A DNA stretch of 64,000 nucleotides, taken from contig JAEUSB010000017.1 in assembly GCA_016788865.1 (NCBI GenBank), positions 62,001 through 126,000 of the forward strand, read 5' to 3'. Under the pieces are notes generated by a model that did not search any database, was not told where the DNA came from, and saw only the letters and a list, made by a program, of their open reading frames with translations. Positions 19,908 to 62,120 of this stretch are shown one piece after another. How positions within the stretch are numbered: position 1 is the stretch's first letter; every line of letters begins with the position of its first letter. The position numbers and the translations under genes are program-made. The stretch is from Leptospirales bacterium (GTDB lineage: Bacteria > Spirochaetota > Leptospiria > Leptospirales > Leptonemataceae).

Positions 19908-20240
19908 ATGGCGGTTTTCTCGCTTCAATCCTGCCTCATCCTCTCCGCCATTCTGATCTTGATTGGCTGCTACGGACTCATCATGCGGCGCAGCTTGCTC
20001 TTGATATTTCTGTCCGTAGAGATTGTCTTGAATGGGGCACACATTGCCATTGTTGCTTTCAATTACTTCCGTTGGTCTGGCGTCGAGGCCGGCCATTACC
20101 TGTACATGATATCTATTGGAATTGCAGCAGTCGAGGCTGCGGTCGGTCTATCTATGATTATCGTGATCTTCAAGAACTACGGGACAATCCTCGCTGATAG
20201 TTTCACCAGTCTTCGTGCGAGCGATAAGGAAAAATCGTGA
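19908..20240 (+). CDS. nuoK: NADH-quinone oxidoreductase subunit K
   Basis: Encodes 110 residues with three membrane helices, as expected of NuoK. The conserved membrane Glu residues used in proton transfer are visible in Leu-Ser-Val-Glu-Ile-Val-Leu-Asn (helix 2) and Val-Glu-Ala-Ala-Val-Gly-Leu (helix 3). Its stop overlaps the GTG start of nuoL by four bases. Confidence 0.95.
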   Translation: MAVFSLQSCLILSAILILIGCYGLIMRRSLLLIFLSVEIVLNGAHIAIVAFNYFRWSGVEAGHYLYMISIGIAAVEAAVGLSMIIVIFKNYGTILADSFTSLRASDKEKS

Positions 20241-22138
20241 ACTGGGGTTTGCTGCTTATCCCTGTACTCCCGGCTATCGGGGCCGCTCTGATTGCTCTTG
20301 GCGGGAGGCGCCTGGGTCTTCTGGGTTCGTCTCTAATTGCAATTCTTGCCACTGCCATATCGCTTGCCCTGGCCGTGATGATCGGATTTCAGGGTGTAAT
20401 TGCGGGTAACGTTCAAACCGCCGGTCACGTGGAGTCGGCAGTCTTTCAGAATTTCAGTTTTATCTCGTTTGGAAATGATTGGCAAGCGGCTGCAGGTTTT
20501 CGTATGGACCTGCTTTCGGGCATGATGACGTTATTGGTAACGTTATTCGGCTTTTTGATCCTTTTGTTTTCCTATGATTACATGAAAGAGGACCCGGATC
20601 CTGTTCGCTACTTTGCCAGCATTTCCCTTTTCATTTCCGCGATGTTGATACTGGTCCTTTCGGAGAACCTTGTGCTTCTCTTTCTTGGCTGGGAAGGTGT
20701 TGGTCTTTGCAGTTATCTCTTGATTGGCCACTACTGGCGAGAGTCCGGTGTGCCTCTGGCCGCCTACCGAGCTTTCTTTGTGAATCGAGTTGGAGATCTC
20801 TTCTTCATTCTGGGTGTCTTCTTTCTCCTTCGCACCCTCGGGACTGTTTCGTTTGCAGAGATGGCGGAGAAGTTTTCAACAATGTCGGGGGCAATGCTAC
20901 CGGAAACAAAGTCTGATTTGACGTTGGCGTCCTTCTTCTTGCTCGGTGGGGCATTTGGAAAATCCGCCCAGGTGCCTTTGCATGTGTGGTTGCCCGATGC
21001 CATGGCCGGTCCCACTCCCGTGAGCGCACTGATTCATGCTGCTACAATGGTCACGGCTGGCGTATTCCTGGTTGCTCGACTTGACTGGCTGTACACGGCC
21101 ATTCCGGCTGCCCGCGGTTTGCTTTTATGCGCGGGTCTTCTTACCCTTATAGTCGGTGCAGTCCTGGCCTGCTTTCAAAACGATATCAAGAAAGTTCTTG
21201 CGTACTCGACGCTCTCACATCTGGGTCTGATGTTTACAGCATTGGCGGCTGGAGCTTCCTCGGCTGCGCTGTTTCATCTGTTTGGTCACGCTTCGTTCAA
21301 AGCGATTTCATTCCTGGCAGCCGGAAGTATCATTCTCGCTTCGCATCATGAGCAGGATCTAAGAAACCTTCGTGGAAGCCTCAAGCATTTGCCAGTGACC
21401 AGAATTGCACTCTGGATCGGGGCTATCGGTGGTGCGGGTCTCCTTCCGTATGCCTCGGCCGGTTTCTTTTCTAAGGAGGCTGTGCTTCATTCGGTTTCGC
21501 ACGGTTCATTCATGCTCGGCAGTGTCGCCATTTCAGGTTCAATAATCCATTGGATTGTCTTTGCAGTGGAGTTAGTCGGTGTGGTGTACCTATTTCGCAT
21601 GCTGGCCCTGCTTGAGACCGGTAAGTCAGAGCATTCGTATCATGAAAAAGGCATTTTGCTCCGATTGGTTTTGATTTTCCTTTGTCTTGTAGCCATTGCT
21701 TTTGGGGTCTTCTCAGCACCTGGAGTGCCTGGGGTTCAAGGGTTACTTTTCGCAAAGGTTTCACATCTCGAATTGACTGAGGTGTTGATCGCATCCGGGA
21801 GCGCTCTCATTGTGGCGATCGCTGTCTTTGTGCTGTATGGAAAGGATTCAGTGGAGCAGGCAACGGAGCGCGCCGCGGCCGCTGGACCCCTTGCAAAGCT
21901 GTTCTATTTCGATGCAATCTACAATGCGCTTCTGTTGAAGCCCCTAAATTTCATCGGGATGAAAACGAGCGCGTGGTTAGAGAATCCAGTTTTCGCAGGA
22001 ATCATACGCACAGGTGGTCGCTTTGGAGACCGCCTTGGTGCGCGCTTTTCGAGAATACAGACGGGTCTAATCAACGATTATGCAATAGGCATCCTGGTCT
22101 CGGGTGCAATTTTGATTTTGTTCGCACTGATGGCATGA
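20237..22138 (+). CDS. nuoL: NADH-quinone oxidoreductase subunit L
   Basis: Encodes 633 residues, a large antiporter-like proton-pumping subunit with about 16 helices and the long C-terminal amphipathic helix. Visible motifs are Leu-Phe-Leu-Gly-Trp-Glu-Gly-Val-Gly-Leu-Cys-Ser-Tyr-Leu-Leu-Ile (helix 5, with the key Glu) and Leu-His-Val-Trp-Leu-Pro-Asp-Ala-Met-Ala-Gly-Pro-Thr-Pro-Val-Ser-Ala-Leu (helix 7 region). The start is GTG, with AAGGA upstream and GTGA overlap with nuoK. Confidence 0.97.
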   Translation: MNWGLLLIPVLPAIGAALIALGGRRLGLLGSSLIAILATAISLALAVMIGFQGVIAGNVQTAGHVESAVFQNFSFISFGNDWQAAAGFRMDLLSGMMTLLVTLFGFLILLFSYDYMKEDPDPVRYFASISLFISAMLILVLSENLVLLFLGWEGVGLCSYLLIGHYWRESGVPLAAYRAFFVNRVGDLFFILGVFFLLRTLGTVSFAEMAEKFSTMSGAMLPETKSDLTLASFFLLGGAFGKSAQVPLHVWLPDAMAGPTPVSALIHAATMVTAGVFLVARLDWLYTAIPAARGLLLCAGLLTLIVGAVLACFQNDIKKVLAYSTLSHLGLMFTALAAGASSAALFHLFGHASFKAISFLAAGSIILASHHEQDLRNLRGSLKHLPVTRIALWIGAIGGAGLLPYASAGFFSKEAVLHSVSHGSFMLGSVAISGSIIHWIVFAVELVGVVYLFRMLALLETGKSEHSYHEKGILLRLVLIFLCLVAIAFGVFSAPGVPGVQGLLFAKVSHLELTEVLIASGSALIVAIAVFVLYGKDSVEQATERAAAAGPLAKLFYFDAIYNALLLKPLNFIGMKTSAWLENPVFAGIIRTGGRFGDRLGARFSRIQTGLINDYAIGILVSGAILILFALMA

Positions 22139-22139
22139 C

Positions 22140-23621
22140 ATGGAACTAGTTTTTATCCTCGCCTATCCGATTCTCGCTGCGGTGCTTGTGGCGATACGCC
22201 CCAATCCCAGGTTGTTCGCAGCTTCACTTATTGTGTTTGGCCTTGGAGTCACTGCTTCCGCTTTGCATGCACTTGTGGGTGCAGTGGGGTCTGCCGCAGG
22301 ACTCCCCGGATCGTCGGAAGTCTCAACGCGCCTTTCCGGCCATTTGAATCTTCCTGCGCTTTCTGTTTGGGGAGATTTTGCCGTTGCCCCCGCATTCTAT
22401 CTGACGGCGCTGAACGCGCCCATGATCCTGCTTCTTGGCCTGGCGATTTTGTTTGTTTCCCTGCTCCTGCATTCACACCATTCCAATCAACCTGGCTACA
22501 TGGTATCCGCCTGGGTTTTTATCCTCGGGCTTTCTGGAACCTTTGTTTCGGATTCGCTGGTTCTGTTCTATGTATTCTTCGAACTCTCATTGATAGGAAT
22601 ATATTTCTGGATCGGGCTATTTGGTCAGAGTGATGCCAATGGGAAGAAACCAGCACTGACTCGATTTTTTCTTTTTACTCTGGTAGGAAGTCTTGCAATG
22701 CTCATCTCGATTGCAGCTCTTTCTTCGGGTGGTAAAGACGTTCGCTGGAGCGATCTGGCCGGGGTAATTGGGCAGTTCTCAGCAACTGCACGCTCCTGGA
22801 TATTCCTTGGATTCTTACTGGCTTTCGCGATCAAGCTACCGTTATTCGGCCTTCATGGATGGCTCCGGGATACTTACAGTATTGCTCCACCGGTTGCACG
22901 GGCTCTGTTATCCGGCGTAATGTCCAAGCTCGGGGCGTTTGGTCTCTTGCTCCTGGCCGTGAATTTTGGATCAGAGTTCAGATCGCATGCCAACTTCCTG
23001 ACCTTCCTTTTTACCGCCGGCGTTTTGTATGGGGCGCTTGTTAGCCTGGCACAGAAACGATTTCTGGACGTTATCATCTTCGCTTCGCTGTCACATTTGA
23101 ACTTGATTGGTCTGGGTTTGGCGACAACCGTAGGGCAGGGTAGTGATTCAAGCGTTGTGGCTGCTTGCAGTTTGCAGATGCTCAACCATGGGCTGATCAT
23201 GGCTGCAATTCTGGTCTTTGATGCTCGTTTGAAAAGTCCGGATGAGTCACGGACTGGCCTTCGCGAAAAATCGCGTCTGTTAGCCGCATTTCTGTTGGTG
23301 TCGTTGTTTGCCGCGGTGAGCCTGCCCGGATTGAGCAGTTTTCCGGCAGAACTAATCATTCTCTACTCAACTTTCCGCTGGTCTTTTGTTGCCGTGTTTG
23401 TTGCGGCTCTGGGCCTTTTGATTTCTGCTGGCGCGGTCATTCGCAGCTACCACAGAATTTTTCTAGGTCAGCATTCCGGTTACACGGAGGCAACAGCGGA
23501 ACTCACGCCGCTCGAGACTCTGCCCCCCCTGGTTTTTGCATTGGTCTGGATTGTCCTTGGACTTGCTCCACAACTAATTCTTAGTCCCATAGTACGTGCA
23601 CTTGGTCAGGTGAGTCCATGA
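22140..23621 (+). CDS. nuoM: NADH-quinone oxidoreductase subunit M
   Basis: Encodes 493 residues of the second antiporter-like subunit. The conserved Phe-Phe-Glu-Leu-Ser-Leu-Ile (key Glu of helix 5), Lys-Leu-Pro-Leu-Phe-Gly-Leu-His-Gly-Trp-Leu (Lys and His of helix 7) and Met-Leu-Asn-His-Gly-Leu motifs are present. The His-Gly-Trp-Leu-Arg-Asp-Thr sequence departs from the usual His-x-Trp-Leu-Pro-Asp-Ala at the helix break, a small difference from typical NuoM. It starts two bases after nuoL and overlaps nuoN by four bases. Confidence 0.95.
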   Translation: MELVFILAYPILAAVLVAIRPNPRLFAASLIVFGLGVTASALHALVGAVGSAAGLPGSSEVSTRLSGHLNLPALSVWGDFAVAPAFYLTALNAPMILLLGLAILFVSLLLHSHHSNQPGYMVSAWVFILGLSGTFVSDSLVLFYVFFELSLIGIYFWIGLFGQSDANGKKPALTRFFLFTLVGSLAMLISIAALSSGGKDVRWSDLAGVIGQFSATARSWIFLGFLLAFAIKLPLFGLHGWLRDTYSIAPPVARALLSGVMSKLGAFGLLLLAVNFGSEFRSHANFLTFLFTAGVLYGALVSLAQKRFLDVIIFASLSHLNLIGLGLATTVGQGSDSSVVAACSLQMLNHGLIMAAILVFDARLKSPDESRTGLREKSRLLAAFLLVSLFAAVSLPGLSSFPAELIILYSTFRWSFVAVFVAALGLLISAGAVIRSYHRIFLGQHSGYTEATAELTPLETLPPLVFALVWIVLGLAPQLILSPIVRALGQVSP

Positions 23622-25036
23622 ACGAGTATTTGATTTCGCAGCTACCCCTGATTACCGCCATTTTCGCGGTACTGATTGTGGCTCCCTCCAATGCTTCGTG
23701 GCGGAACGTCGTCACTCTTGTTCTCTCTGTTGCGGGCGTGATTGGGACTCTGGTGCTCGTATTCTTTCTTCCGGCTGGAGGTAAGTTTTTTGGTGGGGCC
23801 ATTGCGATTACCGTGGCTGGAAAGGTTCTTGCAGTTGCGACCTTGTTCCTGGTTGCTCTTGCACTAATCCTCACTGAGGGATACCTTTCCAAGATTCATG
23901 TGCCAATTCCGGAATGGCGCCTGACGGTATTGTTTATTGCTCAGGGTGGCGTGACCCTGTGTCTTGCAGACGATCTGGCTACGCTGTTCGTTGCTTTTGA
24001 GCTGTTATCAATTCCATCCTACGCGCTCGTAGGGTTTTCGCGCGGTGACGGCCGTTCTAACGAGGCGGGAATCAAGTATCTTGTGCTTGGTATCCTGGGC
24101 AGCGCCTTCTTGCTTCTAGGGATCGCTTTTCTTTACGGGGCTTCCGGGCAAATCGCACTCTCCGGTATCCGAGAGGATCTGGCCGCAGGTCTCGTGGCCT
24201 CCGTGAGAGACTCAGGCATCCGCGCGGAAATGGACTTTTATCGGATTGCCCTTGGCGCTATTCTTATAGCATTCTTCTTTAAAACGGCCGTTGCACCATT
24301 TCATGCGTGGCTACTCGACGTGTACGAAGGAGCCAGCTATGCTGCAATAAGTGTAGTAGGCGTGGTTGCCAAAGTTGCAGTCTTTGCGGCACTGTATCGG
24401 GTTCTTCACACCGCTTTTGAGCCCTTACGAGACACCTGGTCTTCCTTGCTGGCCATTGCCGCAGTAGTGTCCTTTGTCATGGGCGGCCTGCAGGGCGTAA
24501 GGCAAACCGGTATCAAGCGCATCCTGGCCTGCTCATCGGTACTCAACGCCGGATTCATTCTCCTGGCTATGACCGGTGAGTCAGCGCAATTTACATTCTA
24601 TCTCATTGCTTACTCTCTTGCAACGTTAGGCGCTATTGCGCTGCTGATTAATTTTGGAACCAGATCGGCTGATGTGGATTCTGTCGATGATCTGGGCGGG
24701 CTTGGGCAGTCGCATCCTGTGGCTGCGCTGAGTCTTACAGTTTTGCTGATGAGTTCTGCCGGTGTCCCTCTAACCGCCGGCTTCGTGGGCAAGTTCGGTG
24801 TTTTGTATTCGGTCTTTCAAATTCCCGAGAGTCTGGCCCTGGTAGCCGCCATCATAGGGGTGTTTGCCTCTGTCCCCGCGTTCTATTTCTATTTCCGGCT
24901 AGTTAGAGCCATGTGGTTTGAAACTGGCACAACGATTGTCCGCGAGCCACGGTTAAACTACAAAGTTGTAGGTCTGTTCCTGGCTATTCTGCTTGTTGCC
25001 ACAGGAATTGTTCCGAGTTTGCTTACCTGGCAATAG
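23618..25036 (+). CDS. nuoN: NADH-quinone oxidoreductase subunit N
   Basis: Encodes 472 residues of the third antiporter-like subunit. Motifs include Val-Ala-Phe-Glu-Leu-Leu-Ser-Ile-Pro-Ser-Tyr-Ala-Leu-Val (helix 5 with the key Glu), Ala-Pro-Phe-His-Ala-Trp-Leu-Leu-Asp-Val-Tyr-Glu-Gly-Ala and Gly-Val-Pro-Leu-Thr-Ala-Gly-Phe-Val-Gly-Lys-Phe, all diagnostic for NuoN. It ends the nuoGHIJKLMN run; 81 bases separate it from sufB. Confidence 0.96.
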   Translation: MNEYLISQLPLITAIFAVLIVAPSNASWRNVVTLVLSVAGVIGTLVLVFFLPAGGKFFGGAIAITVAGKVLAVATLFLVALALILTEGYLSKIHVPIPEWRLTVLFIAQGGVTLCLADDLATLFVAFELLSIPSYALVGFSRGDGRSNEAGIKYLVLGILGSAFLLLGIAFLYGASGQIALSGIREDLAAGLVASVRDSGIRAEMDFYRIALGAILIAFFFKTAVAPFHAWLLDVYEGASYAAISVVGVVAKVAVFAALYRVLHTAFEPLRDTWSSLLAIAAVVSFVMGGLQGVRQTGIKRILACSSVLNAGFILLAMTGESAQFTFYLIAYSLATLGAIALLINFGTRSADVDSVDDLGGLGQSHPVAALSLTVLLMSSAGVPLTAGFVGKFGVLYSVFQIPESLALVAAIIGVFASVPAFYFYFRLVRAMWFETGTTIVREPRLNYKVVGLFLAILLVATGIVPSLLTWQ

Positions 25037-38213: not shown

Positions 38214-39344
38214 CTATTGAAAGAATGCAGAGAGTAAATCGCGCAGGCGAAGCCGCCCCATGTTAAACGAGAGGAGCGCCTGAAACAAACGAGTGCGCCG
38301 GGAAAGCAACAAAACGATCCAACGCGCCAGCCAGAATCTTTCGGACAGAAAAAGTAAAGCCCGCGTGGAAATCTTGTAGTTAAACGTTATCCGGCGATAA
38401 TCGGCTGAATATCGGGCAAGGGCTGCCCGGGGAACAGGTTCTTTGGCCTGGTGCAGTACCGGCACAAGGCAGCGGAGAGCAAATGCCTGCTCAACAGCCA
38501 GACTGATCCCTTCTCCGGTGATGGCGTCAACGTAACCGGCTGCATCTCCAATCAAGACGCAACCGTCCGTAATAACATCGCTAGTCCGTTGTTCAAGGGG
38601 ACCAACAGCGCGAATACTGGATGTTGTGTCCCCCCGAAGAAGGCTTTCTGGCAAATAGTCGCGAAGCGAATCGTACGAGTCGTCTCCCCCTGCGGGGCTA
38701 ATCTTCTTACTATTCCAGAGGATTGCCTGGCCGGCCTCATTCCTGGCGACTGGCGTTATGTAGGCTTCGCAATTTTCGCCCAGGATTACCTGAACGTAGT
38801 CGGAAACATGATCTGTTCGAAAATGTTGCCTGATTCCCCAACGATGATGGGTGCGTCCCGCGAGTTGCAAGCCCGCAAGCCGGCGAATGCGGGAGTGAAG
38901 GCCATCTGCAGCGATGAGCAAGTTGGTGCGAATGTCTGCCGTTCGAAGTCGAACCTCTCCTGTAAATGGAAACGCAGGTAGCCAGTCCTCCCGATAAAAC
39001 GTGACGCCCAGGTCGGATGCCACTTCGCACAATGCTTTGATAAGTACGGGACGTCGCAATCCCAGCCCGGGCCCTTCTAAGAAATCTGCAACGGCTTGCG
39101 TGTTTCCGGCAGTATAGGAGATTCCTTTGATCGGATAGCCCAGCTTACCTATTCTCTCGGTTACACCGAGTTCGGCAAGTAACGCAAGCCCGGAGGGCAT
39201 GATTCCCTCGCCACAGGCTTTATCCAGCGGATCGGAGTGCTTTTCGATTAACGCAACCTCAAGCCCTTCGCGTCTCAGTACGATCGCCGCAGAGAGTCCT
39301 GCGGGACCGCCGCCAACTACAACTGCGTGGAAGAATCGATGCAT
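38214..39344 (-). CDS. FAD-dependent oxidoreductase of the type III PKS cluster
   Basis: Encodes 376 residues of the geranylgeranyl-reductase/PHBH-like flavoprotein fold. The FAD motif Gly-Gly-Gly-Pro-Ala-Gly-Leu-Ser is at 11-18, followed by Ala-Cys-Gly-Glu-Gly-Ile-Met-Pro near 43-50. A second FAD motif Gly-Asp-Ala-Ala-Gly-Tyr-Val-Asp-Ala-Ile-Thr-Gly-Glu-Gly is near 270. In phenolic-lipid operons such as Streptomyces srsABC, a flavoprotein hydroxylates the aromatic ring to a quinol or quinone; a parallel role here is inference. It could instead reduce a chain double bond. It is last in the five-gene unit, five bases after the ligase gene. Confidence 0.85.
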   Translation of the reverse strand: MHRFFHAVVVGGGPAGLSAAIVLRREGLEVALIEKHSDPLDKACGEGIMPSGLALLAELGVTERIGKLGYPIKGISYTAGNTQAVADFLEGPGLGLRRPVLIKALCEVASDLGVTFYREDWLPAFPFTGEVRLRTADIRTNLLIAADGLHSRIRRLAGLQLAGRTHHRWGIRQHFRTDHVSDYVQVILGENCEAYITPVARNEAGQAILWNSKKISPAGGDDSYDSLRDYLPESLLRGDTTSSIRAVGPLEQRTSDVITDGCVLIGDAAGYVDAITGEGISLAVEQAFALRCLVPVLHQAKEPVPRAALARYSADYRRITFNYKISTRALLFLSERFWLARWIVLLLSRRTRLFQALLSFNMGRLRLRDLLSAFFQ

Positions 39345-39349
39345 GCTGG

Positions 39350-40984
39350 CTAGCTCGAGGCGATTGGCTTAAGCTCACCGGCCAGGAACATCCTGCGTGC
39401 TTCTGCTCGCTTGACTTTGCCGCTTGTGGTTCTGGGAATTGCACCACTTTCCAGGATCAGGACTGTTTCAGCAATGATCCCGGTCTTTGCCGCAACAGCC
39501 TCCCTGACAAGCATGGCCAGTTCCGGAGGTTTCTGCGCATCTGCCTTATCACGTTCAACCACGATTACAACGCCCTCTGTCTCCCTGGAAGTTTCATTGG
39601 CAAATGCCGCAGTCCTTTCGTGTCTGAGACCGGCGACACCCTCCGTTGCAAACTCAATGTAAGATGGGTCGTGGTTTCGTCCGTTAATGATGATCAAGTC
39701 TTTACTACGGCCGTACAGATATAGACTTCCGCGAAAGAAAAATCCAATGTCGCCCGTGTTCAACCACTCTGGTGCCGGGGGATCATCGAAATATCCACGC
39801 ATGATCGAATCTCCGCGAAGAAATATCTCTCCCAGTAAGTTTTCGCCCCGGGTTTTGCCGGATGGATCGCGTATCTCGATTGTGAATCCCGGAAGTGCTG
39901 ACCCGACCGTAACGATCTCCGTACCCTCTGGCTTTTCTACAGCATGGCCCCGGCCCAATTGGTCCGTATCAAAGGACGTTGACTGCGGTGCGACACCGGG
40001 ATCGGAGAAGGCAACGGCCAGTGTTGCCTCTGCAAGGCCATAGACAGGAGTAAAGGTTGTGAAGTTGAATGAAGCCTTTTGGAAGCGCGCGTGAAAGTCC
40101 TTCAGGGTTCTGAGATGAACGGTCTCTGCGCCTACGAGTGCGATCTGCCAATTGGAAAGATCCAGCGTCGTAAGTTCGTCGTCGGTAACTCGTTCCGTGC
40201 ACAGCTTCAATGCAAAATTTGGACAGGGACTGATGGTTGATTTGGTTTCGCTCAGGGCACGCAACCAGAGTCCGGGCCGGAGGACGAAATCCTCCGGTCT
40301 CAGAAACGTCCCATTGCCCTTTCCCACTACTGCTGTAAACAATCCACCGATTAGCCCCATATCATGGTGCATTGGTAACCAGGAAAGACCGCTATGATTT
40401 GCCAGATCGCCCGGGAAGCGAGATAGAATGGCATTCGTATTTGCCAGGAGATTGCCGTGGGTGAGCAGAATCGGTTTTGGATCGACCGTTGTTCCGCTTG
40501 AAAACTGAATCAATGCGGGTGTGCTATGAGTGGCCTCGTGGATGTAAGTTTCAGGACTTTTGATCTCTGAGACCCCGACGAACGTGGTGCCAACGCTCGC
40601 AGAAACTTTTTGTAAGCTACCGAGGATTGCGTCTTCTGCAATGACCAGTTCCGCACGCGCTCGTGTAAGCATGCGAGCGGTGGTGGCGCTATAATCGGAG
40701 CCCCGGCCCAGCCTGGGAGGCGCAAGACAAAATGGAATACCTCCGGCAAGCAAGACACCGAATAACGTTTGAACAAAAGAATAGGAGGTGGAAAATATCA
40801 GGCCAACCGTATCCTGCGGTGAAATACCGCGCTCGCGGATCGCAGCCGCCGCATGCGAAGCATCAACGAGTAACTGGCTATAAGGATAAACAGTAAGTTG
40901 TCCCTGACGATCGAAAAACTGGATGCCGCGGTCTGTCTCCGCCGCAAGCCGGAGCGCTTCCACCAGGCTTGATGCCGGATTCAA
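39350..40984 (-). CDS. Fatty-acyl-AMP ligase (FAAL-like)
   Basis: Encodes 544 residues of the adenylate-forming family. Motifs include Gln-Phe-Ser-Ser-Gly-Thr-Thr (P-loop-like), Trp-Leu-Pro-Met-His-His-Asp-Met-Gly-Leu-Ile-Gly-Gly, Tyr-Gly-Leu-Ala-Glu-Ala-Thr-Leu, Asn-Thr-Gly-Asp-Ile-Gly and Gly-Arg-Ser-Lys-Asp-Leu-Ile-Ile-Ile-Asn-Gly-Arg-Asn. The last ones, and His-His-Asp-Met-Gly-Leu, are typical of FAALs, which load fatty acids onto carrier proteins rather than CoA. The C-terminal catalytic Lys lies in Thr-Thr-Ser-Gly-Lys-Val-Lys-Arg. Its start overlaps the acyl carrier protein stop by four bases, so that carrier is its natural partner. Confidence 0.9.
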   Translation of the reverse strand: MNPASSLVEALRLAAETDRGIQFFDRQGQLTVYPYSQLLVDASHAAAAIRERGISPQDTVGLIFSTSYSFVQTLFGVLLAGGIPFCLAPPRLGRGSDYSATTARMLTRARAELVIAEDAILGSLQKVSASVGTTFVGVSEIKSPETYIHEATHSTPALIQFSSGTTVDPKPILLTHGNLLANTNAILSRFPGDLANHSGLSWLPMHHDMGLIGGLFTAVVGKGNGTFLRPEDFVLRPGLWLRALSETKSTISPCPNFALKLCTERVTDDELTTLDLSNWQIALVGAETVHLRTLKDFHARFQKASFNFTTFTPVYGLAEATLAVAFSDPGVAPQSTSFDTDQLGRGHAVEKPEGTEIVTVGSALPGFTIEIRDPSGKTRGENLLGEIFLRGDSIMRGYFDDPPAPEWLNTGDIGFFFRGSLYLYGRSKDLIIINGRNHDPSYIEFATEGVAGLRHERTAAFANETSRETEGVVIVVERDKADAQKPPELAMLVREAVAAKTGIIAETVLILESGAIPRTTSGKVKRAEARRMFLAGELKPIASS

Positions 40985-41238
40985 TTGCCCTTCTCTTTCA
41001 GCCGAATTGAAATCAGTTGGACAACGTCGGCGACTGTTCGTGGAGGTCTGTCGGGTTCATCTCCGAGGTTCATTCGATAGTGATTCTCGATTTCGAGCGC
41101 CATCGTCAACATTCCAACGGAATCCAATCGCAGATCTTCCGCCAGTCTGTCGCTCAATTGAACCTTCTTCTCAACCCTGCAATTCTCGCTGAGGACTTTG
41201 CGCACAAGTTCAAGAATATCTTCGTTGGACTCAGCCAT
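40981..41238 (-). CDS. Acyl carrier protein
   Basis: Encodes 85 residues. The phosphopantetheine attachment Ser40 is in Leu-Arg-Leu-Asp-Ser-Val-Gly-Met-Leu, equivalent to the Asp-Ser-Leu motif, between predicted helices I and II. The sequence is acidic as usual for ACPs. It overlaps the methyltransferase gene before it by eight bases and the ligase gene after it by four. The likely role is to carry the fatty-acyl starter from the AMP ligase to the type III polyketide synthase. No phosphopantetheinyl transferase is seen in the window. Confidence 0.9.
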   Translation of the reverse strand: MAESNEDILELVRKVLSENCRVEKKVQLSDRLAEDLRLDSVGMLTMALEIENHYRMNLGDEPDRPPRTVADVVQLISIRLKEKGN

Positions 41239-41740
41239 ACACAGCCTTTTCCTCGGCCTTGATTCTGAAGTAAAGGAAGCATGCGTTCAGAATGCTGAAC
41301 ACAATTGACGTCGCGAACGCCCCGTGTAGCAGGGGCACGCCAATGATCTCCAGGCAAACGCCCAGGTAATTGGGGTGCCTGATGTATCTGTAAAGCCCAC
41401 CGCGAACAGGAGCTACAGGCCAGACGATGATACGCACACTCCACCTTTCTTTCAGGGTAGTAATTGCATGGTAGCGCAACGCCTGCCCTGTAACCAGTAG
41501 AAAAATCCCGACAGTAAAAGAGTACCAGCTGAAAGTCGTCCACAGATAGACCTCAGCGACCATGGAAATAAACCACAGTGTGTGGATTGATGTCATCCAG
41601 GGAACCTGACCGGGGGCAACTTCACGCGCACCCTGGCGCAATGCGTTTGCGGTATTCTTCTTACTTAATCTGAGCTCAAGGACGCGCTGTAATGCCAGCA
41701 AACCGACCACGATAAAGAATACGATCTTCGAGACGTCCAT
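41231..41740 (-). CDS. Isoprenylcysteine carboxyl methyltransferase-like membrane methyltransferase
   Basis: Encodes 169 residues with about four to five membrane helices. The C-terminal Tyr-Arg-Tyr-Ile-Arg-His-Pro-Asn-Tyr-Leu-Gly-Val and a following Glu in Arg-Ile-Lys-Ala-Glu-Glu match the ICMT/PEMT SAM-binding core. Homologues next to type III PKS genes (Streptomyces SrsB, Bacillus BpsB) O-methylate alkylresorcinols or alkylpyrones; the same role is inferred here. The gene starts two bases after the PKS stop. Confidence 0.88.
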   Translation of the reverse strand: MDVSKIVFFIVVGLLALQRVLELRLSKKNTANALRQGAREVAPGQVPWMTSIHTLWFISMVAEVYLWTTFSWYSFTVGIFLLVTGQALRYHAITTLKERWSVRIIVWPVAPVRGGLYRYIRHPNYLGVCLEIIGVPLLHGAFATSIVFSILNACFLYFRIKAEEKAVYG

Positions 41741-41742
41741 TA

Positions 41743-42828
41743 TTACCAGCGGATTAGAATCAATTCGGACGCAAATGCCGGTCCCATTGCAATCAGCAGA
41801 CCTAAACTGCCTGGCGGCGGATGGGTTGCCAGCGTCTCCTTCAAAATAAAAAGCACCGAAGCCGAGGAAAGGTTACCGTATTTCAGGAGACTTTCATTCG
41901 AAAGGCGAAGCGTTCCAGGCTTTAGCCCCAATCCTTCTTCCATTCCTGTTATCACTTTCGGCCCACCAGGGTGCGCGATCCAAACGGAAATGTCGTCCAG
42001 CGTCAGTCCTTCCTCCTTGAGGAAGTCGACCACGCCCGGCTTCAAGTGTTCCCGCGCAAATTCCGGAACACCCGGATCCAGTACAACCTTAAAGCCGGTT
42101 TCGCCAATATCCCAGCCCATCACATGCTCGGTGTTTGGAAAGAAGACGCTCCGATTCGCCAGAATCTGGGGGCCTGGCAACGTTTCTCGCCGTAGGTTCT
42201 CTTCCCCGAGCAACAAGACGGCAGCGGCACCATCGCCAAAAAGACCGCTGGAGACAATGTTTGCGATCGAAAGGTCTTCCCGCTGCAATGTTAGCGAGCA
42301 GAGCTCCACGGAAACAAACAGTACCGAATCCTTAGGATGGCCGCGCAAGTAATCAGCTGCCCTGGAAATCCCTGCGGCCCCACCCATGCAGCCCAGTCCA
42401 AAAATCGGTGTCCGCTTCAGCGAGGGGGCGAACGGTATCCGGTTCATTAGTCTTGCATCAAGCGAAGGGACGGCCAGCCCCGTTACACTTGTGCTGATCA
42501 TTGCAGAAATCTGCTCCGCCGGAAAATCGTTTCTCTTAAGCAGGTCGCGGATAAGACGCTCAGATATCTCAAGGGCCGCAGAGATGTATGCGTCGTTTGA
42601 CTGGCTGAAATTCTTGAGCTTCTGGTATGACTCGATCGGGAGCGCCAGGTGCCGGCTACCCACCATCACGTTTCGATGAAATTGTTCAATGCGATCAACG
42701 TTGAAATACTTTTCTGCCCAGAGGTTTCGGAACTCGGAAATGAGCTGGTCCTGAGTATACTCATACGGCGGAAGAGCTGTCTGCGTTGCGGCAATCGTAC
42801 TGACGTTCTTATAAACGTTAGCCGACAT
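41743..42828 (-). CDS. Type III polyketide synthase
   Basis: Encodes 361 residues of the chalcone-synthase-like homodimeric fold, normal length. The catalytic triad is Cys147 (Gly-Leu-Gly-Cys-Met-Gly-Gly-Ala), His287 (Trp-Ile-Ala-His-Pro-Gly-Gly) and Asn319 (Tyr-Gly-Asn-Leu-Ser-Ser-Ala-Ser). Such bacterial enzymes extend a fatty-acyl starter with malonyl-CoA and cyclise it to alkylresorcinols or alkylpyrones. It is the first gene of a tightly packed unit with methyltransferase, ACP, acyl-AMP ligase and flavoprotein. The start ATG at 42828 has only a weak GGAAA site; the msrA gene lies 51 bases upstream and may share the promoter. Confidence 0.95.
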   Translation of the reverse strand: MSANVYKNVSTIAATQTALPPYEYTQDQLISEFRNLWAEKYFNVDRIEQFHRNVMVGSRHLALPIESYQKLKNFSQSNDAYISAALEISERLIRDLLKRNDFPAEQISAMISTSVTGLAVPSLDARLMNRIPFAPSLKRTPIFGLGCMGGAAGISRAADYLRGHPKDSVLFVSVELCSLTLQREDLSIANIVSSGLFGDGAAAVLLLGEENLRRETLPGPQILANRSVFFPNTEHVMGWDIGETGFKVVLDPGVPEFAREHLKPGVVDFLKEEGLTLDDISVWIAHPGGPKVITGMEEGLGLKPGTLRLSNESLLKYGNLSSASVLFILKETLATHPPPGSLGLLIAMGPAFASELILIRW

Positions 42829-42879: not shown

Positions 42880-43392
42880 TTATTCTTTCATCTGCAGTTT
42901 CCGCAGCTTTGGGCGGATAACAACCTGACAATAACCCGCTGTGCGATTGTCGTTATAGTAATTCTGATGGTAGTCTTCTGCCGGATAGTATTTGGTCAAT
43001 GGCACAATTTCTGTAACGATGGGATCTGAAAGCTCAGTCTGAGCTTTTTCGCGAGACTTTATGGCCGTTGCTTTCTGTTTGTCATCGTGAAAGAAGATTG
43101 CGGAGCGATATTGCGTGCCCGTGTCTGCTCCCTGGCGATTCAAGGTTGTTGGATCATGGCATGCCCAGAATGTTTCAAGCAGAGTCTCAAATGAGACAAC
43201 AGCCGGATCGAACTCGATTTGAACGACCTCTGCGTGACCTGTGGTCCCTGCACAAACGTCCCGGTAGGTAGGATTTTCTGTTCTGCCACCGGTGTAACCG
43301 GATTCTACCCGACTTACTCCGGGTATACGCTGGAAGACTGCTTCAAGACACCAGAAACATCCGCCACCAAGTGTAGCCTTTTCACTTGCCAT
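42880..43392 (-). CDS. msrA: Peptide methionine-S-sulfoxide reductase MsrA
   Basis: Encodes 170 residues, the usual length. The catalytic motif is Gly-Gly-Gly-Cys-Phe-Trp-Cys with Cys12 as the nucleophile; the second Cys15 is common. Tyr-Thr-Gly-Gly, Gly-His-Ala-Glu-Val and His-Gln-Asn-Tyr-Tyr motifs are present. It repairs methionine S-sulfoxide in the cytoplasm using thioredoxin. It points in the same direction as the polyketide synthase operon 51 bases downstream. Confidence 0.96.
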   Translation of the reverse strand: MASEKATLGGGCFWCLEAVFQRIPGVSRVESGYTGGRTENPTYRDVCAGTTGHAEVVQIEFDPAVVSFETLLETFWACHDPTTLNRQGADTGTQYRSAIFFHDDKQKATAIKSREKAQTELSDPIVTEIVPLTKYYPAEDYHQNYYNDNRTAGYCQVVIRPKLRKLQMKE

Positions 43393-61625: not shown

Positions 61626-62120
61626 GTGCTCTGGCGAAGCCTCTCTGTCATTTTTGTTTTCGCAAGTTTTCTGAGTTTTCACCCACTTGCTGCCAATGAG
61701 GAGCGCATTGTTGCCGTTCCGCGACCGCCGGATTTCCTGGAACTGCTCCTCAATTCAGACATTGTTGTGCGAGGTCGACTGATCCACTCGCAGGAGTTCA
61801 AGATCGGTTCCCTTTCCATGGCGCAACCCAGGTTTATTTGTCTGGAAATTTTCAAGGCATCTGCGTACTTTCCGCTCTCACTCGGAGAGCGTTTCACAGT
61901 GACACATCGCATTCGCCTGGATGAGCTTGGACCAGGGTTTCAGAAGCCCATAGACACTGGCGATTACATAGTTTTCCTTAATATTCGAAACGTAGAAACC
62001 GGAGGCAAAATCACGGGATACACAGCGGTTTTCCCGGATCCGCAGGTGTATGCTATCTGGAATGTTACCGACGATTTGATCACCAGAGCCCGAGCATTCC
62101 GCAACCAGAGTCAGCCGTGA
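61626..62120 (+). CDS. Exported protein of unknown function
   Basis: Encodes 164 residues. A signal peptide (1-23, cleaving at Leu-Ala-Ala) leads to a small beta domain with Asn-Ser-Asp-Ile-Val-Val-Arg-Gly-Arg-Leu and Asp-Tyr-Ile-Val-Phe-Leu-Asn strands, an OB-like pattern. There is a single Cys in Phe-Ile-Cys-Leu-Glu-Ile. It starts with GTG at 61626 and overlaps the next gene by four bases (GTGA), so the two exported proteins are translated together. I know no named family. Confidence 0.65.
   Translation: MLWRSLSVIFVFASFLSFHPLAANEERIVAVPRPPDFLELLLNSDIVVRGRLIHSQEFKIGSLSMAQPRFICLEIFKASAYFPLSLGERFTVTHRIRLDELGPGFQKPIDTGDYIVFLNIRNVETGGKITGYTAVFPDPQVYAIWNVTDDLITRARAFRNQSQP

Follow-up and report, generated by a model that had tools for sequence, protein, structure and literature searches.

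What might a spirochaete assemble with a type III polyketide synthase (PKS) whose gene lies next to those of a methyltransferase, a carrier protein, an acyl-AMP ligase and a flavoprotein, and how would the starter unit reach the synthase? The question is raised by a locus in a stretch of 64,000 nucleotides (hereafter, the window; positions 62,001 to 126,000 of contig JAEUSB010000017.1) from a Leptospirales bacterium, whose assembly (GCA_016788865.1) comprises 4.88 Mb in 109 contigs. Overall, we consider it probable that the five genes are an operon whose product is a long-chain phenolic lipid of the resorcinol type: a fatty starter would be loaded by a fatty acyl-AMP ligase (FAAL) onto an acyl carrier protein (ACP), and the ring product would be methylated and hydroxylated.

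Organization of the Locus

The five genes span positions 38214-42828 and every ORF lies on the minus strand, as the original prediction had proposed and as the ORF positions and the Pfam/NCBIfam identities bear out. They encode the type III PKS (41743-42828, 361 aa; assigned by Pfam Chal_sti_synt_N/C, phmmer, tree and structural model), an ICMT-like membrane methyltransferase (41231-41740, 169 aa; RHPNY motif and a Pfam ICMT match of 85 bits), the ACP (40981-41238, 85 aa; NCBIfam ACP models), the FAAL (39350-40984, 544 aa, with a TTG start; NCBIfam, phmmer and alignment) and an FAD-dependent oxidoreductase of the FAD_binding_3/geranylgeranyl-reductase-like group (38214-39344, 376 aa; Pfam and motifs). 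Two bases separate the PKS and methyltransferase genes, the latter overlaps the ACP gene by 8 bases, 4 bases are common to the ACP and FAAL genes, and 5 bases lie between the FAAL and FAD genes.

A gene for the peptide-methionine sulfoxide reductase MsrA (42880-43392, minus strand; Pfam PMSR, 228 bits) is located 51 bases upstream of the PKS gene and might be co-transcribed with the set, even though we do not consider it part of the pathway. MsrA also adjoins the PKS in a genus-mate (L025); where the contigs of the other family members reach that far, it was not found beside the PKS. No Rfam RNA was found within the window, and promoter-like matches in it were as frequent as expected from shuffled sequence, so that none was used. 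Elsewhere in the window, the AT skew, near zero over most of its length, is strongly negative (-0.29 to -0.33) at positions 20001-24000.

The Type III Polyketide Synthase

The comparison of the PKS with solved structures gave the same two relatives by sequence and by fold. Indeed, phmmer retrieved Mycobacterium tuberculosis Pks11 (308 bits) and the cyanobacterial resorcinol synthase CylI (256 bits), and a Foldseek search with the AlphaFold model (pLDDT 87.6) returned Pks11 as the best match (TM 0.92-0.93, 41% identity over the model) and CylI as the second-closest solved PKS (TM 0.91-0.93). In the maximum-likelihood (ML) tree, the window PKS, those of its family-mates, Pks11, CylI and the enzyme of a Streptomyces PKS-ICMT-FAD operon form a clade with a bootstrap of 100, outside which fall THNS, PKS18 and the enzymes of the PKS+ICMT (Bps-like) pairs. 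This clade matches Clade 2.22 (SrsA, PKS10, PKS11, CylI), the members of which are described as alkylresorcinol synthases (PMC8086630).

The catalytic triad is formed by Cys147 (42388-42390), His286 (41971-41973, in an HPGGP motif) and Asn319 (41872-41874), all of which align with the corresponding residues of Pks11, CylI, THNS and PKS18; of the triad proposed originally (Cys147/His287/Asn319), the cysteine and the asparagine stand, and the alignment moves the histidine by one position. A weak, overlapping Pfam match to ACP_syn_III_C might be taken to mean that the gene encodes a KAS III-like enzyme of ordinary fatty acid synthesis and that no type III PKS pathway exists at this locus. We regard this as extremely improbable: the Chal_sti_synt matches are stronger, the triad is accompanied by a GLGC motif, and a KAS III/FabH identity is ruled out by tree and fold. 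Clustering with KAS III enzymes, the outcome that the original prediction had set against itself, was not seen either in the ML tree (in which Escherichia coli FabH was the outgroup and HMG-CoA synthase was absent) or among the best PDB matches of Foldseek.

As for the type of ring, the PKS carries Trp239 (42112-42114), and the corresponding residue has been tied to resorcinol formation (PMC5916927); its presence would thus favour a resorcinol ring. The same tryptophan is found in Pks11 and in all PKS homologues of the loci retrieved, and since the title of the Pks11 structure gives alkylpyrones as products, Trp239 does not discriminate between the two ring types. The enzyme might instead lactonise a tri- or tetraketide to an alkyl-alpha-pyrone, to be O-methylated by the methyltransferase, as for Bacillus bpsAB and mycobacterial Pks11, with the flavoprotein oxidising the pyrone or its tail. 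That Pks11, the closest solved relative, was deposited as an alkylpyrone synthase and that PKS+ICMT pairs of the Bps kind occur in two family-mates (G187 and G205) would fit such a route. However, the Bps-like pairs occupy a different, supported branch of the ML tree, the flavoprotein is the partner found in resorcinol-type (srs) clusters, and Trp239 is in place; we therefore consider a pyrone unlikely and retain the resorcinol-type product as the preferred reading.

The Acyl-AMP Ligase and the Carrier Protein

FAALs are recognized by an insertion in their N-terminal domain, by a FAAL-specific helix and by CoA-excluding residues, which in EcFAAL are W224, M231 and F279 (PMC8460268). We judged these features by aligning the ligase with EcFAAL (3pbk) and E. 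coli FadD. The region of the FAAL insertion (residues 315-359, from the YGLAE to the VG motif) measures 45 residues, versus 50 in EcFAAL and 23 in FadD; the FAAL-specific helix (residues 229-237, RPEDFVLRP) is of full length, FadD being three residues shorter; and the bulky CoA-excluding residues are W202, M209 and F257, where FadD has A, F and a gap. The presumed catalytic lysine is Lys523. In agreement with this, the NCBIfam FAAL model PRK09192 scores 418 bits against 130 for the CoA-ligase model PRK06187, and phmmer aligns the protein with EcFAAL at 267 bits. The FAAL-like nature of the ligase, suggested from the outset, is thus supported, as is the presence of the insertion, the lack of which would have spoken against it, and a CoA-ligase identity is ruled out by alignment and profile scores. 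The enzyme is predicted to make acyl-AMP and acyl-ACP rather than acyl-CoA.

Judged from its sequence, the ACP is a divergent one: several NCBIfam ACP models match it, the best at 39.7 bits, and the Pfam PP-binding score (16.6 bits) is below the cut-off. Its phosphopantetheine serine, Ser40 (41119-41121), lies within LDSVG, and the LDS motif with this serine is invariant in all eight homologues aligned.

It might be argued that the PKS is fed directly by acyl-AMP, or by acyl-CoA, and that the ACP serves another step, for example by holding a tailoring intermediate. Many type III PKSs do accept CoA starters in vitro, and a three-gene Streptomyces cluster without ACP and FAAL implies that the core works without them there. 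This alternative appears improbable to us, given that the CoA-excluding features of the FAAL are complete, that 4 bases are shared by the ACP and FAAL genes and that each cluster of the five-gene type seen contains both. Delivery of the starter by the ACP is accordingly the route that we infer.

The Methyltransferase and the Flavoprotein

The HPNY motif of the methyltransferase is invariant in the alignment of 12 out of 12 homologues. The flavoprotein matches Pfam FAD_binding_3 at 89.5 bits and exhibits the motifs KACGEG and GDAAG...TGEG; no equivalog model matched it. TIGR02032 gives it 100 bits, under the cut-off of 158.8, and scores the flavoprotein of the Streptomyces PKS-ICMT-FAD operon (L072) at 274 bits. 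From its gene neighbourhood, the protein is presumed to be an aromatic hydroxylase in the role of SrsC. A halogenase identity is not favoured: the Pfam match is weak and the WxWxIP motif was not seen by eye.

Conservation and Distribution of the Gene Order

A PKS match is present in 9 of the 22 genomes of the family, and six of the 22, the window's own counted, harbor all five genes in the order PKS-ICMT-ACP-FAAL-FAD and on a single strand. In the five others sharing this order the PKS is 56-89% identical to that of the window, the highest value being that of a genus-mate. Among the remaining PKS-positive genomes, two (G187 and G205) have a divergent PKS+ICMT pair and one (G168) has the PKS alone; in the latter (L028, 7947-9401) the other four genes are missing and a hemerythrin-domain gene lies downstream.

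The five-gene order was also found in one genome of another phylum (G477, locus L065), the same phylum as that of a Deltaproteobacteria MAG whose contig (L045) shows four of the five before it ends. The expectation that the five genes would be found together in relatives is therefore borne out, and their maintenance in five other family genomes and in a second phylum excludes chance. The ML tree places the L065 PKS with actinobacterial enzymes and not with the spirochaete ones, which implies that the unit is either old or has been assembled or moved more than once. According to the simplest reading, an srs-type core has received the loading pair between methyltransferase and flavoprotein. One fixed five-gene unit of this composition recurs in at least two phyla. 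PKS relatives from plasmid records, at most 45% identical, served solely for the comparison with the three-gene Streptomyces cluster and for two PKS+ICMT cases.

Other arrangements of type III PKS genes were observed. The two type III PKS loci of one genome (G524; L066 and L067) differ in their partner, a flavoprotein at one and an ICMT-like methyltransferase at the other, as if the pathway were split over both. In a sister family of the same order, the Leptospira lipid A methyltransferase LmtA scores above the cut-off, whereas the family of the window gives only weak LmtA-like matches, a contrast that would fit a placement of the latter outside Leptospiraceae but within the order of Leptospira. 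All six type III PKS genes seen in the LmtA-bearing family (L033-L038) directly adjoin a GT4-type glycosyltransferase gene; the glycosyltransferases are 51-61% identical among loci and the PKSs belong to a different branch, a pairing which suggests a glycosylated polyketide lipid.

A Possible Pathway and Its Product

On the basis of the gene identities, the FAAL-type features, the clade and fold of the PKS and the conserved gene order, which are observed directly, the following scheme can be proposed. The FAAL would convert a free fatty acid to its acyl-AMP and transfer the acyl group to the phosphopantetheine arm of the ACP, a step for which the sequence features described above speak. The PKS would take the acyl starter, with the ACP as its likely donor, and extend it with malonyl (or methylmalonyl) units; ring closure would then give an alkylresorcinol or alkylresorcylic acid (or, in a broader wording, an alkylpyrone). 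The ICMT-like enzyme might methylate the ring product and the flavoprotein hydroxylate it, leading to a methylated alkyl-hydroquinone or quinone. The steps assigned to PKS, methyltransferase and flavoprotein are drawn by analogy with srsABC, the mycobacterial polyketide quinones and the cluster of Myxococcus xanthus; the srsABC pathway, from which the analogy for the later steps derives, is the one reportedly described by Funabashi et al. in 2008, a study cited in PMC5916927. The ring type, the order of tailoring, the final product and its role are inferred in the same manner.

The genome contains two genes of the MqnA/MqnD family (futalosine menaquinone route), and no menB was found in it above the cut-off. 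Any quinone made by the operon would thus be additional to menaquinone, that is, auxiliary; with the two MqnA/MqnD-family genes present, the idea that it is the sole quinone of the cell is not favoured. We can speculate, quite tentatively, that the operon yields a phenolic or quinone lipid of novel chemistry, built from carrier-fed starters, which would act in Leptospirales-type membranes as an auxiliary electron carrier or as an envelope component. If this were true, it would represent a lipid class not known in these spirochaetes.

The operon is a concrete, testable candidate for the origin of phenolic or quinone lipids within the lineage of the window, and would bring the type III PKS route fed by FAAL and ACP into the spirochaete order that includes Leptospira. 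It is apparently the first such cluster noted in Leptospirales-type spirochaetes, here in a freshwater relative of Leptospira. No paper on a spirochaete phenolic- or quinone-lipid pathway of this type was found among the open-access papers searched, which is in itself weak evidence of absence.

Comparison with Known Systems

The feeding of a type III PKS by a FAAL is known from M. xanthus, so the type of pathway is not new in principle. A title cited in PMC10896814 links a FAAL to a type III PKS in this organism, a FAAL/ACP pair of which transfers acyl groups (PMC8460268). The M. xanthus alkylresorcylic-acid (ftp) cluster (FtpA; Hayashi et al. 2011), compared here by its published description, likewise has a type III PKS, named as a stilbene synthase, with a methyltransferase, an AMP-dependent synthetase and a monooxygenase (PMC5006271). 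The window cluster belongs to a different phylum, and the ftp-type trait of FAAL and ACP encoded together with a type III PKS is shared by the window, its five family-mates and L065.

The match of PKS, methyltransferase and flavoprotein to the srsABC scheme, as originally proposed, is upheld for Streptomyces griseus through the literature and for its srsABC-type relative Streptomyces sp. NBC_01237 (L072) by direct comparison: PKS, ICMT-like and FAD genes follow the same order, all three are matched by profiles of the window cluster, and the PKS falls in the same clade. Unlike the window, this locus has no ACP and FAAL between methyltransferase and flavoprotein. The mycobacterial PKS10/PKS11 polyketide-quinone loci provide the closest solved PKS relative, Pks11; in M. 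smegmatis, the PKS has methyltransferase and oxidoreductase partners and polyketide quinones are made (PMC8730385). The M. smegmatis locus is a three-gene operon, as described, without FAAL and ACP, and the crystal work on Pks11 gives pyrones.

Among cyanobacteria, the cyl pathway has an AMP-binding CylA and a free ACP, CylB, resembling the pair of the window, in addition to the second-closest solved PKS, CylI; however, type I PKS modules intervene between the loading of the ACP and the action of the type III PKS, and the products are cyclic dimers. The hierridin (hid) cluster combines methyltransferase, oxidoreductase and type III PKS, and an acyl-ACP starter has been proposed for it, but its description includes no FAAL/ACP pair and places its PKS in another clade (PMC8086630). 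Lastly, the planctomycete alkylresorcinol operon, the heterologous expression of which yielded alkylresorcinols, shares with the window a type III PKS, a methyltransferase and an FAD oxidoreductase, and differs from it in having three genes, with the PKS last and, as described, no FAAL/ACP pair (PMC10896814).
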